Shown: positions 12,438 through 40,413 of the stretch, in pieces | How the letters are laid out: each line of letters opens with the position of its first letter | Numbering within the stretch: the stretch's first letter is position 1 | Assembly: GCA_012520655.1 (NCBI GenBank) | Contig: JAAYNW010000066.1 | Location: 1 to 64,000, forward strand | Source: Clostridiales bacterium | GTDB lineage: Bacteria > Bacillota > Clostridia > Lachnospirales > Lachnospiraceae | Direction: 5' to 3' | Length of the DNA stretch: 64,000 nucleotides | The notes under the pieces: generated by a model | Told to the model about the DNA's origin: nothing | The model's database searches: none | Seen by the model: the letters and a program-made list of their open reading frames with translations, nothing else | Translations under genes and position numbers: made by a program

Positions 12438-12827
12438 CTATAAATTGTCCGTCAACATACCATCTCTCATACCCGAACCTATGTCAAGAGTATTGAGAGT
12501 TCTTCTTTTTCTTCTCGCTTCTTCTGAAGTTCTTAAAATATAATCCTTAATTTCTTTCGAATGTTTGATATGTATCAGCTGCAGGTTCGGATGCGTGGTA
12601 TCTCCTGTAAAACATATGACCGTCCCGAGTCCGAATATTCTTTCCAATAAGGACACCTGAAGTTCTACATCCTGCACCTTGTACATATAACAGTCATTTT
12701 CATAAGTTTTAAACAGACCGGTATTGACCACAATATATTCTTCCTGAATCGTATACTTTGTAAACGTCCACGGAAGTCCAAAAAACAAAAGCCTTTTTCT
12801 CTCGATATATTCCATAATAATGACCAT
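12438..12827 (-). CDS. PH domain (bPH2-like) protein
   Basis: WTFTKYTIQEEYIVVNTGLF...VQDVELQVSLLERIFGLGTVICFTGD pattern of bacterial PH domains. Confidence 0.6.
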   Translation of the reverse strand: MVIIMEYIERKRLLFFGLPWTFTKYTIQEEYIVVNTGLFKTYENDCYMYKVQDVELQVSLLERIFGLGTVICFTGDTTHPNLQLIHIKHSKEIKDYILRTSEEARRKRRTLNTLDIGSGMRDGMLTDNL

Positions 12828-12926: not shown

Positions 12927-12955
12927 TTGAAAGACATGATTCATTGTGGTATCAT
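12927..12955 (+). promoter_or_regulatory. SigA-type promoter for pyrBI leader
   Basis: TTGAAA (12927-12932) - 17 nt - TATCAT (12950-12955). Confidence 0.7.
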
Positions 12956-13015
12956 AGAAGAAATTTTAGGGCATATAGTTTATATAGTAAAGTAAATGAA
13001 TTCAGGAGGTACCCC

Positions 13016-13120
13016 ATGGCAACGAGAGAACATAACGATTGTTTCAGATTTTTCCAAATGCCGGTTGCCATCTGTTTTTTATTATTTGTTCAATTAATTA
13101 TTTTAATGGTTACTTATTAA
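13016..13120 (+). CDS. Putative 34-aa pyrBI leader peptide [34 protein letters not shown]
   Basis: ATG preceded by AGGAGGT Shine-Dalgarno; U-rich second half; stop codon abuts the downstream hairpin. Confidence 0.65.
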
Positions 13121-13149
13121 ATCGAAGAGAATTTTTTCTCTTCGATTTT
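13119..13149 (+). terminator. Putative attenuator hairpin in pyrBI leader
   Basis: 13-bp perfect stem AAATCGAAGAGAA / TTCTCTTCGATTT, TTTT loop, short T tract. Confidence 0.7.
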
Positions 13150-13233
13150 GTATGTACGGCTATTATAAATATTACCATGCCGCCTACAGAAAGAGTCGCT
13201 CTAAAATATCATTATGGAAAGGAAGGTTATAAT

Positions 13234-14148
13234 ATGAGACACTTAATGAGCCCTCTCGATTTTACCGTCGAAGAATTGGATAAACTTTTCGACCTCGCAA
13301 ATGATATCGAACACAATATGGCAAAATATGCTCATGCATGTGACGGAAAAAAGCTTGCCACCTGTTTCTACGAACCGAGTACCCGTACAAGACTAAGCTT
13401 TGAATCCGCAATGTTAAACTTGGGAGGAAGCGTTATCGGATTTTCCGATGCAGGCTCTTCTTCCGCTTCCAAAGGAGAAAGCGTTTCCGACACGATACGC
13501 GTTATATCCTGTTTTGCAGATATCTGTGCCATACGTCATCCGAAGGAGGGTGCTCCCATGGTTGCCGCAAGCAAATCTTCCATTCCGGTCATTAATGCCG
13601 GTGATGGCGGCCATCAACACCCAACCCAGACCCTTACCGATTTGCTTACCATCCGTTCATTAAAAGGAAAGCTTAAGAATTTCACTGTCGGCTTGTGCGG
13701 AGATTTGAAATTCGGCCGTACCGTTCATTCCCTCATTCACGCTTTGATACGTTATCCCGATATTCAATTCATTTTTATATCGCCCGAAGAACTGAAAGTT
13801 CCCGATTATCTTACAGACATATTAAAAGAAAAGAACATCCCGTATGAAGAAGTTATTCGTCTGGAAGAAATTATGCCTAGACTGGATTTCTTATATATGA
13901 CTCGCGTACAGAAAGAGCGTTTCTTCAACGAAGAGGACTATGTAAGGTTAAAAGATTTCTACATATTGGATAAAACCAAAATGGAACTCGCAAAAAGCGA
14001 TATGCTCGTTCTACACCCTCTTCCGCGTGTTAACGAAATCTCTGTAGAAATAGATGACGACCCGCGCGCCGCATATTTCAAACAGGTACAATACGGCGTA
14101 TATGTCAGGATGGCACTTGTACTCACATTGTTGGAAGTCGAAGTATAG
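13234..14148 (+). CDS. pyrB: Aspartate carbamoyltransferase catalytic subunit (start corrected from 13039)
   Basis: [51 protein letters not shown] ggaaagg upstream of 13234. Confidence 0.95.
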
Positions 14149-14169: not shown

Positions 14170-14604
14170 ATGTTAAATGTAGGAAAAATAGAAGAAGGCT
14201 TCGTTCTCGACCATATCGAAGCCGGAAAAAGCCTTTCCTTATATCATCATCTGCAGCTTGATAAGCTGGATTGCACCGTTGCCATTATAAAAAATGCAAA
14301 AAGCAATAAGATGGGAAAAAAAGATATTCTTAAAGTGGAGTGTGATATCAATACTTTAGATCTGGATGTTCTGGCTTTTATCGACCACTGCATTACAGTA
14401 AATGTAATTAAAGATGGGGAAATTGTAGATAAAAAAGAATTGACGCTCCCAAAGGAAATTAAAAATATAATCAAATGCAAAAACCCCAGATGTATTACTT
14501 CCATCGAGCAGGGACTGCCCCATATCTTCGTACTTTCCGATGAGAAAAAAGAAATATACAGATGCAAATATTGTGAAGAAAAATATGAAGACATAACCAA
14601 ATGA
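14170..14604 (+). CDS. pyrI: Aspartate carbamoyltransferase regulatory subunit
   Basis: C-terminal Zn site CKNPRCITS...YRCKYCEEKY; directly after pyrB. Confidence 0.93.
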   Translation: MLNVGKIEEGFVLDHIEAGKSLSLYHHLQLDKLDCTVAIIKNAKSNKMGKKDILKVECDINTLDLDVLAFIDHCITVNVIKDGEIVDKKELTLPKEIKNIIKCKNPRCITSIEQGLPHIFVLSDEKKEIYRCKYCEEKYEDITK

Positions 14605-15123: not shown

Positions 15124-15897
15124 TTAATTGCCGCATTCTACGCTTATTTTATTAAAAACGCCCATGATTTCTTCTATCTGCAGTTGCTTCTTCTCCTCTC
15201 CTGCCTTATCCAAAATCACATTGCCTTCATGCATCATCAAAATACGGTTCCCATATTCTACAGCATATCGTAGATTATGCGTTACCATAATAGTAGTTAC
15301 CCTTTTTTCCCTAACTATCTTATCCGTCAGTTCCATGATGATTTCTGCCGTCTTCGGATCGAGTGCCGCCGTATGCTCATCCAAAATTAAAAACTCAATC
15401 GGTGTCATGGTTGACATAAGTAGAGCCAGCGCTTGCCGCTGTCCGCCGGAGAGGGATCCGACCTGTGTATATAGCTTATCCTCCAGACCCAGATTCAAAC
15501 GACTGAGCAATTCTCTGTAATACTCGGTTCTGGCTTTATTTACGCCGCGTCCCAAACCGTATTTTTTTCCTTTATTATCTGCAATGGACATGTTTTCCAG
15601 AATATTCATGCTCGGACATGTGCCCTTTGAAGGATCCTGATAAACGCGGCCAATTTTGCGATGTCTGAAAAAATCTCTCTTTCCCGACATGTCTTCTCCG
15701 TTTACCGCTATCTTCCCGCTGTCAATATCGATACTGCCGCAGATAATATTTAGCATGGAGGTTTTGCCTGATCCATTGCTTCCCACAACTGCCACAAATT
15801 CTCCGTCAGCTATCTTGAGATTAAAATTCTGAAAGAGACAGAGTTCGTTTACAGAACCGGGATTATAATTTTTATTTATATTAATTAGTTCTAACAT
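15124..15897 (-). CDS. ABC transporter ATP-binding protein (TrpZ-like)
   Basis: GSNGSGKTSMLNI, LSGGQRQALALL, LDEHTAALDP. Confidence 0.93.
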   Translation of the reverse strand: MLELININKNYNPGSVNELCLFQNFNLKIADGEFVAVVGSNGSGKTSMLNIICGSIDIDSGKIAVNGEDMSGKRDFFRHRKIGRVYQDPSKGTCPSMNILENMSIADNKGKKYGLGRGVNKARTEYYRELLSRLNLGLEDKLYTQVGSLSGGQRQALALLMSTMTPIEFLILDEHTAALDPKTAEIIMELTDKIVREKRVTTIMVTHNLRYAVEYGNRILMMHEGNVILDKAGEEKKQLQIEEIMGVFNKISVECGN

Positions 15898-16774
15898 ATC
15901 TGCCTCCTCTTCTCTTTCTGTCCATACCGACCACTAAAATAATAAGGAACAATACTGCGGTAATCAGCTTAAGGTCCATGGGTGGAAGCCCCATCCTGAT
16001 AGCCAAAGCCACACATCCCTTATATAGAAGAGAGCCGAGCACTACACTGGAGGTTATATTTAAAAAGGTTACCTTCTTAAAAAGGCTCGTACCGATGATA
16101 ACACTCGCAAGACCAATAACTACCGTTCCTGTTCCCATGGAAATATCGAAATATCTCTGCTGTTGGGCGAATATACATCCGCTCAGTGAGACCAAACCAT
16201 TCGCAATGGCGAGTCCGACTATTTTTACCAATCCCTTATCTACTCCCAAAGAGGTAACGATAATATCATTGTCGCCTACCGCCCGAAGAAGGAAGCCCGA
16301 CTTTGTGCTCATGTAGCCATCCAAAAGGTATTTGGTAATCATCAAAATAACTAAAATAATAATTACCGTCTTATATACCGACATGCCTTCCGGAAAAATG
16401 GCATTGATAAAACCATTATCAAAAATCGTATTCATGTTATAAATAGGCAGATTAGCCTTGCCGGCAATTCTCAAGTTTACCGTGTAGAGCGCCGTCATCA
16501 TAATGATCCCCGACAATAAATCTCTTACTTTCAATTTTACGTGAATGAGTCCCGTACATATACCCACAAGAGCGCCCGCCGCAAACGTTATGAAAAGTGT
16601 CAAAAGAGGATTCACTCCCGATGCAATCAACATACAGGTGATTGCCGCTCCCATAGGGAAGCTGCCGTCTACCGTTAAATCGGGAAAATCCAATATTTTA
16701 TATGTTATATACACTCCTAACGCCATAATAGCATATATCATGCCTTGTTCCAACACGCTGAGCAATAAAGTCAC
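15881..16774 (-). CDS. ABC transporter permease (TrpY-like)
   Basis: Hydrophobic, GVYITYKILDFPDLTVDGSFPMGAA motif of the branched-chain/TrpY-like permeases. Confidence 0.9.
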   Translation of the reverse strand: MTLLLSVLEQGMIYAIMALGVYITYKILDFPDLTVDGSFPMGAAITCMLIASGVNPLLTLFITFAAGALVGICTGLIHVKLKVRDLLSGIIMMTALYTVNLRIAGKANLPIYNMNTIFDNGFINAIFPEGMSVYKTVIIILVILMITKYLLDGYMSTKSGFLLRAVGDNDIIVTSLGVDKGLVKIVGLAIANGLVSLSGCIFAQQQRYFDISMGTGTVVIGLASVIIGTSLFKKVTFLNITSSVVLGSLLYKGCVALAIRMGLPPMDLKLITAVLFLIILVVGMDRKRRGGRYVRTN

Positions 16775-16795
16775 TATAATTCCTCCGATACTTTT

Positions 16796-17794
16796 TTATT
16801 CTACGACTATTTCGTCGAATACTTGATATGCACTGTCCACAAATGAACTGTCGAGTGCAAGATTGATTTTTTCTGCGGCTGCCGTATTTACATACAGGCT
16901 CGGCTCGGAAATAACTTCAAAATTCATTTCGGAAGCTTTTGCCTCTCCCTTTAAGACCTTAGCCGCCATTTTTCCCGTTTGTTTGCCGAGTTCATAATAT
17001 TCAAGACCCATAGAAGCGACGCATCCTACCTTTACCTGCTCCACTTCGGAACCGAATACCGGAATCCCTGCATCGTTTGCAGTCGCAAGCACTGTCTGCA
17101 AAGCGGATACTACCGTATTATCCGTCAAATTCGTAATACAGTCAACCTTTGTTACCATATCTGCTGCGGCCATACTTACATCGGCGATGGTATTGATTCC
17201 CACCTCTACGATTTCGAATCCATAGTCACCTGCATACTTTTTGTATTCTTCAATCGCACTTACGGAATTCACCTCGCTGGTCGTATAAATTATGCCTATC
17301 TTCGTTGCCTCCGGCAATATCTTTCGAATCATATCAAGCTGCTCGGAAACCGCCAATGCGTCTGAAGTGCCGGTCACATTTCCCGTAGGCGCTCCGTCCT
17401 CTCCCGCAAGACCCGCTTCCACCGGATCGGATACCGCCGTATAGATAACTGGAATATCCGTATTCAGACAGGAATTGTATGCGCTCATCGCACTCGGAGT
17501 GGCGATGGCGCAAATCATATCTACCTTTTGGGATACATAGTTATCTGCTATCGTACTTGCCGTGCCCGTATCTGCCTGCGCATTATCAAAGAGCACGGTC
17601 AGATTATCTCCTTCTTTAATTCCTTCTTCCGTGAGACCTGCAAGAAAACCTTCCTTACAATTATCCAAGGAGCTGTGCTCCGCAAATTGCGATATACCGA
17701 TGGTATATCCCTCCGAAGCCTTCTGTCCGCAAGCTGTAAACATTGTCATCATAGTTGTTGATGCTAAGAGTACTGCCAATAATTTCTTTTTCAT
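16796..17794 (-). CDS. ABC transporter substrate-binding lipoprotein (TrpX-like, PF04392)
   Basis: Lipobox-like MFTACGQK; YTIGISQFAEHSSLDNCKEGFLAGL, AIATPSAMSAYNS, IPVIYTAVSDPVEAGL. Confidence 0.92.
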   Translation of the reverse strand: MKKKLLAVLLASTTMMTMFTACGQKASEGYTIGISQFAEHSSLDNCKEGFLAGLTEEGIKEGDNLTVLFDNAQADTGTASTIADNYVSQKVDMICAIATPSAMSAYNSCLNTDIPVIYTAVSDPVEAGLAGEDGAPTGNVTGTSDALAVSEQLDMIRKILPEATKIGIIYTTSEVNSVSAIEEYKKYAGDYGFEIVEVGINTIADVSMAAADMVTKVDCITNLTDNTVVSALQTVLATANDAGIPVFGSEVEQVKVGCVASMGLEYYELGKQTGKMAAKVLKGEAKASEMNFEVISEPSLYVNTAAAEKINLALDSSFVDSAYQVFDEIVVE

Positions 17795-17954: not shown

Positions 17955-18235
17955 AAAAAAAACGCCTCAAGCTATTTGCTTGAGACGGTAATAAACTTAG
18001 TATAAGTTCTATTATCGCGGTACCACTCAAATTGACATGCCATCTAGGCATCGACCACTTTATTCATGTACTGCCATACACGTCGGATGGATAACGGGCC
18101 CGAATCCCGCCGGCACCTACTATCATTTCAGCCCGGCCTCGAAAGTCCATTCAGTAAAATTCCCTATACTGCCTTCCACCGCCGGCAGCTCTCTGCAATA
18201 GTTTCTGATACCTACTACTCTTTCTCACAGGTTTA
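17955..18235 (-). promoter_or_regulatory. T-box riboswitch leader
   Basis: Reverse strand: AGAGAG, GGTGGAAG, GAGTGGTACCGCG T-box, and terminator CGTCTCAAGCAAATAGCTTGAGGCG-TTTTTTTT upstream of the ABC operon. Confidence 0.93.
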
Positions 18236-18377
18236 TTGATTATTTCTCTTTTATTCACATTAATCTAATTTTTTATTATTGTCAAGCTTTTATTTTAACT
18301 ATCCTAATTTTAATTATTTTTTTAAGAAAAAATAAAAATATATTTACTTCTTGTTAAATTAGGGTACAATGTGAATA

Positions 18378-39106: not shown

Positions 39107-39190
39107 TGCGGAAGAAGGGACTTGAACCCTCACGATGTAACCATCACAAGATCCTTAGTCTTGCTCGTCTGCCAATTCCGACACTTCCGC
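39107..39190 (-). tRNA. tRNA-Leu, anticodon AAG
   Basis: Reverse strand GCGGAAGTGTCGGAATTGGCAGACGAGCAAGACTAAGGATCTTGTGATGGTTACATCGTGAGGGTTCAAGTCCCTTCTTCCGCA; anticodon stem CAAGA/TCTTG, loop CTAAGGA; class II variable arm. Confidence 0.92.
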
Positions 39191-40329: not shown

Positions 40330-40413
40330 TGCAGGAAAAGGGACTTGAACCCTCATGATATTGCTATCACACGGACCTGAACCGTGCGCGTCTGCCAATT
40401 CCGCCATTCCTGC
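40330..40413 (-). tRNA. tRNA-Leu, anticodon CAG
   Basis: Reverse strand GCAGGAATGGCGGAATTGGCAGACGCGCACGGTTCAGGTCCGTG...GGGTTCAAGTCCCTTTTCCTGCA; loop TTCAGGT. Confidence 0.94.

Follow-up and report, generated by a model that had tools for sequence, protein, structure and literature searches.

The 307 bases ahead of the aspartate carbamoyltransferase genes pyrB and pyrI in a member of the Lachnospiraceae contain an extended -10 promoter, a strong Shine-Dalgarno sequence (SD), a 34-codon open reading frame (ORF) and a 13-bp hairpin, an arrangement that probably represents a translation-coupled, UTP-sensitive transcription attenuator of pyrBI. In sister lineages the place of the short leader ORF is held by a complete nitroreductase gene. 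Firmicute pyrimidine control is usually described around PyrR. All coordinates refer to the window, that is, the whole stretch of 64,000 nucleotides that was analysed.

Anatomy of the pyrBI leader

The features of the region, from the divergent neighbour gene to pyrI, are as follows.

12438–12827, minus strand: divergent gene with a bacterial PH domain (Pfam bPH_2), a synteny anchor found in the same divergent position in most relatives
12927–12955, plus strand: promoter TTGAAA-17-TATCAT with extended -10 (TGGTATCAT), kept in four species
12961–12968, plus strand: AAATTTTA, predicted to be transcribed first and a candidate for UTP-sensitive reiterative (slippage) initiation
13004–13010, plus strand: SD AGGAGGT of the leader ORF, assigned from sequence and from conservation in the clade
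13016–13120, plus strand: leader ORF of 34 codons plus stop (ATG at 13016, TAA at 13118–13120)
13072–13118, plus strand: U-rich stretch of the ORF (62% T), a candidate region for UTP-dependent pausing of RNA polymerase
13119–13149, plus strand: very probable attenuator hairpin of 13 bp with a weak U tail (TTTTGTATG), assigned from fold, covariation and covariance model
13234–14148, plus strand: pyrB, aspartate carbamoyltransferase catalytic chain, presumed regulated gene (Pfam OTCace_N, OTCace)
14170–14604, plus strand: pyrI, aspartate carbamoyltransferase regulatory chain, presumed regulated gene (Pfam PyrI, PyrI_C)

The promoter consists of a -35 element (12927–12932) and a -10 element (12950–12955) with a TGG extension, separated by a 17 nt spacer. 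Taken alone, the promoter scan performs at chance level, and it is conservation that supplies the support for this promoter. The arms of the hairpin (13119–13131 and 13136–13148) enclose a TTTT loop, with the 5′ arm beginning inside the stop codon of the leader ORF and the structure ending 85 nt ahead of the pyrB start codon (13234). The promoter, SD and ORF, together with the contact between stop codon and hairpin, had been proposed in an initial annotation of this DNA and their coordinates were verified, while the T4 tail it described needs correction, three of the four T belonging to the 3′ arm of the stem. The free tail is TGTATGTA, which is weak and is left uncalled by a consensus terminator scan. 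Tails of T6 to T9 follow the hairpin in many relatives; given the short free U tail in the window's clade, termination may be weak there.

The combination of ORF and hairpin is not due to chance. The hairpin has a folding energy of -20.2 kcal/mol, far below the mean of -5.98 for shuffled sequences (z -6.55). An ORF with adjoining hairpin arose in none of 5000 dinucleotide shuffles of 12956–13233, the same shuffles giving a hairpin of at least 11 bp in 53 cases and an SD-led ORF of at least 15 codons in 179. The leader ORF is the sole AGGAGG-led ORF of 20–60 codons within the window. Its second half, as the initial annotation noted, is very U-rich, with 62% T over 47 nt of late coding sequence, a level that 0.05% of such windows across the 64 kb attain. 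The closeness of stop codon and hairpin was considered as a stand-alone proof and rejected, since proximity to a stop codon is common among the other terminators of these genomes (median 17.5 nt; 3–16 nt in 31 of 84).

The expected PyrR apparatus was sought at several levels. An Rfam search returned no PyrR match in the window and no family at all, pyr leader families included, for this leader; a search of the organism's whole genome gave no PyrR RNA family member, and the PyrR protein model produced weak matches only, none above cut-off, in 16 genomes of the genus; control genomes gave a positive result in the PyrR searches. The absence of a PyrR element claimed earlier is thereby borne out. 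In other Clostridia (L249, L253, L258, L264), PyrR-like leaders with a AGTCCAGAGAGACT-type element and a terminator are recognisable by eye. Elsewhere in the window, Rfam identifies a T-box leader (17978–18237, minus strand, 101.9 bits), downstream of which lie genes named by eye as those of an ABC transporter (15124–17794; substrate-binding protein, permease, ATPase). Two 84-nt tRNA genes with near-equal scores are located on the minus strand at 39107–39190 and 40330–40413, ca. 1.2 kb apart.

Hairpin and upstream reading frame across relatives

Loci were gathered by means of PyrB from 16 genus genomes, 80 named Lachnospiraceae loci, 160 family genomes and 144 class genomes. Every one of the 16 genus genomes has the hairpin (AAATCGAAGRGA / TCTCTTCGATTT) ahead of pyrB, as do most of the 80 further named loci in varied form, while in most of the more distant Lachnospiraceae it is absent and pyrB has its own short leader or follows straight after the nitroreductase gene. 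Standard pairs make up 92.8% of pair cells among 39 distinct sequences, and both sides have changed at 9 of the 13 pairs, in 44 cells compared with 14 in shuffles; TCGAAGAG/CTCTTCGA in some lineages against TAGAAGAG/CTCTTCTA in others exemplifies such compensation. A covariance model matches at pyrB in every genus genome, two of which have one extra match each, to an ordinary-looking terminator after a yajC-like sequence, between two other genes. A dispersed-repeat terminator was rejected, the exact pattern and the covariance model matching only before pyrB in the window's own genome, and so, for the leaders examined, was a regulon-wide hairpin, pyrC-K-D and pyrF-E being without it.

Across 100 hairpin-bearing loci, the gap between hairpin and ATG has a minimum of 15 nt and a median of 46 nt, measures 40 nt or less in 46 and is devoid of a promoter-like site in 80. 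With gaps so short and promoter-like sites so few, pyrBI must be transcribed through the hairpin, which is very probably an attenuator in the pyrBI leader. At three loci (L139, L140, L145) no hairpin separates the two genes and the nitroreductase ORF stops right at the pyrB SD, which fits a single operon.

Two layouts occur upstream of this hairpin. Most hairpin-bearing species have a nitroreductase gene of about 179 codons (Pfam PF00881), typically ending 1–16 nt before the stem and in a few cases further away. In its place the window and three closely related species (L003, L004, L005) have short ORFs of 34, 35, 31 and 57 codons, respectively. These four form one clade in the PyrB tree (support 0.98), which adjoins species of the same genus with nitroreductase plus hairpin. 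The leader clade keeps the promoter, SD, hairpin and neighbour gene while its peptide sequence diverges; the conservation check suggested by the initial annotation was run and found the leader ORF, its U-rich end and the hairpin in the three closest species, the tract being weaker in L004 and the ORF of L005 extending through the hairpin in the direction of pyrB. Both layouts have the divergent PH-domain gene in the same position (within the leader clade it is found at three of four loci), and the nitroreductase promoter block ATTGAAAG...TATGGTATCAT and SD AAGGAGGTA align with those of the leader. Because promoter, SD and PH-domain neighbour are shared, leader ORF and nitroreductase gene hold the same place, and since the nitroreductase layout is the more widespread, the leader most likely replaced the gene. 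Even the first codons of the leader (ATGGCAGCAAGAGC...GAATGT) might descend from those of the nitroreductase (ATGACAGCAAAAGAATGT), as is suggested by comparison of a possible remnant start, MTAKEC in the leader, with MAARAHNEC in the enzyme. In the fuller scenario, for which belief and doubt are evenly balanced, an ancestral nitroreductase-hairpin-pyrBI operon would have lost its nitroreductase coding sequence in one clade and acquired a regulatory leader peptide instead, keeping promoter, SD, attenuator and possibly the remnant start, and gaining the U-rich tract and a UTP-sensitive start. Neither the nitroreductase gene at the leader's place in most relatives nor the start region as a second possible sensor had figured in the initial annotation.

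An ORF ending at the hairpin persists while its identity changes, from nitroreductase to a leader of 31–57 codons or a CobW-like gene. In L120 a gene for CobW plus DUF1980_C replaces the nitroreductase before hairpin and pyrB, with a similar gene end in L054. L053 (MKNVSISRFRIHSYFISILFLSLFFSY) and L068 (MFHALSHFIIYFPIHFQTVYFHICSI) have U-rich leader ORFs of their own, each ending next to a hairpin that is followed by T7 or T9, extending the recurrence of this combination beyond the clade. In L167 the 3′ end of a 25-codon leader extends into the 5′ arm of a T9 terminator, the hairpin being different from that of the window; the U-rich tract is weaker in L068 and L167. Parsimony on the PyrB tree (without L167) requires a minimum of three switches between the leader state and others, and the L053–L068 group may have had one origin with losses. 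A DNA search of 396 family genomes for further leader-clade members gave only hairpin-sized or short matches elsewhere. In three Butyrivibrio loci (L075, L089, L099) a different gene (336 aa) precedes pyrB, with a hairpin AGGCGCGTATTCT/AGGATACGCGCTT directly after its stop codon and no U tail.

Proposed mechanism and alternative explanations

In the mechanism proposed, transcription would start near 12961–12963, and a ribosome loading at AGGAGGT would trail RNA polymerase along the leader ORF. With plentiful UTP, the polymerase would run ahead over the U-rich tract, the hairpin at 13119–13148 would fold and many transcripts would stop before pyrB. With UTP scarce, the polymerase would slow over both the U-rich tract and the pyrimidine-rich 3′ arm, allowing the ribosome to reach the stop codon and, assuming its usual footprint, to cover the 5′ arm to about 13130, so that the hairpin would be blocked and pyrBI transcribed. 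In E. coli, a ribosome near a terminator represses it, nearly fully with a few nt between stop codon and stem, an effect that is lost beyond about 27–30 nt (PMC4824070); in the window the distance from stop codon to stem is zero. Terminators close to stop codons have, however, also been used as a signature of uncoupled "runaway" transcription in Bacillus (PMC7858274), and their presence near stop codons in these genomes means that coupling may be loose. If the polymerase normally outruns ribosomes, catching up would need pausing and the switch would be strictly pausing-dependent.

The start region may provide a second, weaker UTP sensor through slippage on AAAUUUUA at initiation. Reiterative initiation at carAB requires a run of three U and is more frequent from A starts (PMC6245113); at its predicted start point, AAATTTTA offers both the run of at least three U and the preferred A. 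It is identical in all four leader species while the surrounding 5′ UTR has diverged, and the genus's related nitroreductase promoters lack it. The start U run is missing from the separate leader loci L053 and L068. Seven loci without the hairpin, Roseburia-like and others (L083, L130, L137, L151, L159, L195, L247), carry a TATGATAnwAAAAATG-like start region after the pyrB promoter, possibly a site of start-site or slippage control.

The foremost alternative, itself of small probability, is that a pyrimidine-sensing protein or cofactor analogous to PyrR binds or stabilises the hairpin, with the leader ORF incidental. The stem is indeed conserved beyond the needs of pairing, columns 14–37, 16–35 and 17–34 being nearly invariant, and hairpin 3′ arms resemble each other more than do the post-pyrI terminators of the same 12 species (similarity 0.53 against 0.31). 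Yet the loop varies freely, very similar arms occur in the ordinary terminator of two species, and the element, a single copy of which occurs in most genomes of the genus and which is missing before the other pyr genes examined, defines no regulon; an ORF end adjoining the stem is moreover kept across different upstream ORFs. Translation could in turn be coupled to attenuation while sensing the general translation or growth state, or one aminoacyl-tRNA, instead of UTP. This is likewise improbable: Phe, Leu, Ile and Ser abound in the leader peptides, and the U-rich tract is missing at most other hairpin-bearing loci, mostly nitroreductase-linked, where the pre-hairpin sequence has a median of 28% T, but no single codon run is common to the leaders and the fold has no obvious antiterminator competing with the hairpin. 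Amino-acid starvation would also stall the ribosome upstream and lower pyrBI expression, while the U content and the start U run fit UTP.

The least probable of the three alternatives holds that the hairpin terminates partially and constitutively, or simply serves the upstream ORF as its terminator, and only sets basal pyrBI expression, with pyrimidine control exerted at the enzyme level through PyrI or elsewhere. The frequency of terminators near stop codons in these genomes, the weak U tail in the window and those Lachnospiraceae in which the nitroreductase gene abuts pyrB without a hairpin are all compatible with this. About half of the loci are nevertheless too tight for a separate pyrB promoter, and the hairpin and its sequence have been retained although the nitroreductase is gone from the locus, both of which count against this reading.

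Relation to known attenuation systems

The system most like the leader in the window is the E. coli pyrBI leader (pyrL), with which it shares its own promoter, an SD-led short leader ORF and a U-rich coding tract directly before pyrB-pyrI, as well as a hairpin placed where a ribosome near the end of the ORF could cover it. The U run at the start is also equally spaced, TATCAT being followed by AGAAGAAATTTTAGG in the window (TATCAT-7 nt-ATTTTA) and TATAAT by GCCGGAC-AATTTG in E. coli (TATAAT-7 nt-AATTTG). The leader and hairpin sequences of the two nevertheless look unrelated, the U tail in the window is weaker, and pyrL runs through its hairpin, whereas three of the four leader species end their ORF at or just before it and only L005 resembles pyrL. 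The leader of the window appears not to be a homologue of enterobacterial pyrL, and may be said to work like it rather than to be it. Promoter, SD and hairpin align instead with the Lachnospiraceae nitroreductase-pyrBI locus, which makes the likeness to E. coli pyrBI convergent. Of the convergent pyrBI-type attenuation put forward in the initial annotation, the similarity in working is thus backed by anatomy and conservation, while termination in response to UTP remains its presumptive part. A literature search found no report of a Firmicute pyrBI leader peptide; most subscription journals lay outside its coverage and an earlier description is possible.

Other attenuators are more distant. With the amino-acid type (trpL, pheL, hisL) the leader in the window shares a short leader ORF and a terminator hairpin, but it has neither a run of one regulatory codon nor an evident antiterminator. 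PyrR-dependent attenuation, as in Bacillus and other Firmicutes, likewise involves a terminator in a pyr leader but differs by the PyrR RNA and protein lacking from the searches described above.

In Bacillus subtilis, of the best-studied Firmicute genus, RNA polymerase is reported to move ahead of the ribosomes (PMC9226507; PMC7858274), which would be expected to render attenuators based on leader peptides, as in E. coli, inoperative. For Lachnospiraceae without PyrR, an attenuator of the pyrBI type would, if true, mean that conditional coupling works there. It would also allow the coupling question to be tested naturally in Clostridia and provide a documented case of a leader peptide taking the place of a gene.

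The nitroreductase layout of the relatives finds its own parallel in E. coli rph-pyrE, where a complete upstream gene ends just before the attenuator (PMC2784333). The relatives likewise have a complete upstream gene ending before a hairpin that precedes a pyr gene, differing in having nitroreductase for RNase PH and pyrBI for pyrE; the window itself departs from this layout, a 34-codon leader ORF standing in the gene's place. A second candidate rph-pyrE-like attenuator is seen upstream of pyrF-pyrE in 7 of the 16 genus genomes, where the loop of GGCGTTG...CAACGCC contains the stop codon of a NUDIX gene and a T-rich stretch comes after the hairpin (TTTGTTGTG; L277:2380–2430 on contig C94 of the window's own genome, minus strand, and L302, L304, L305, L307, L312 and L314). 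Should the gene-to-leader reading of the pyrBI locus be correct, both E. coli designs of UTP attenuation would be alternative states of one Firmicute locus, in a lineage whose terminators otherwise resemble those of uncoupled genomes.
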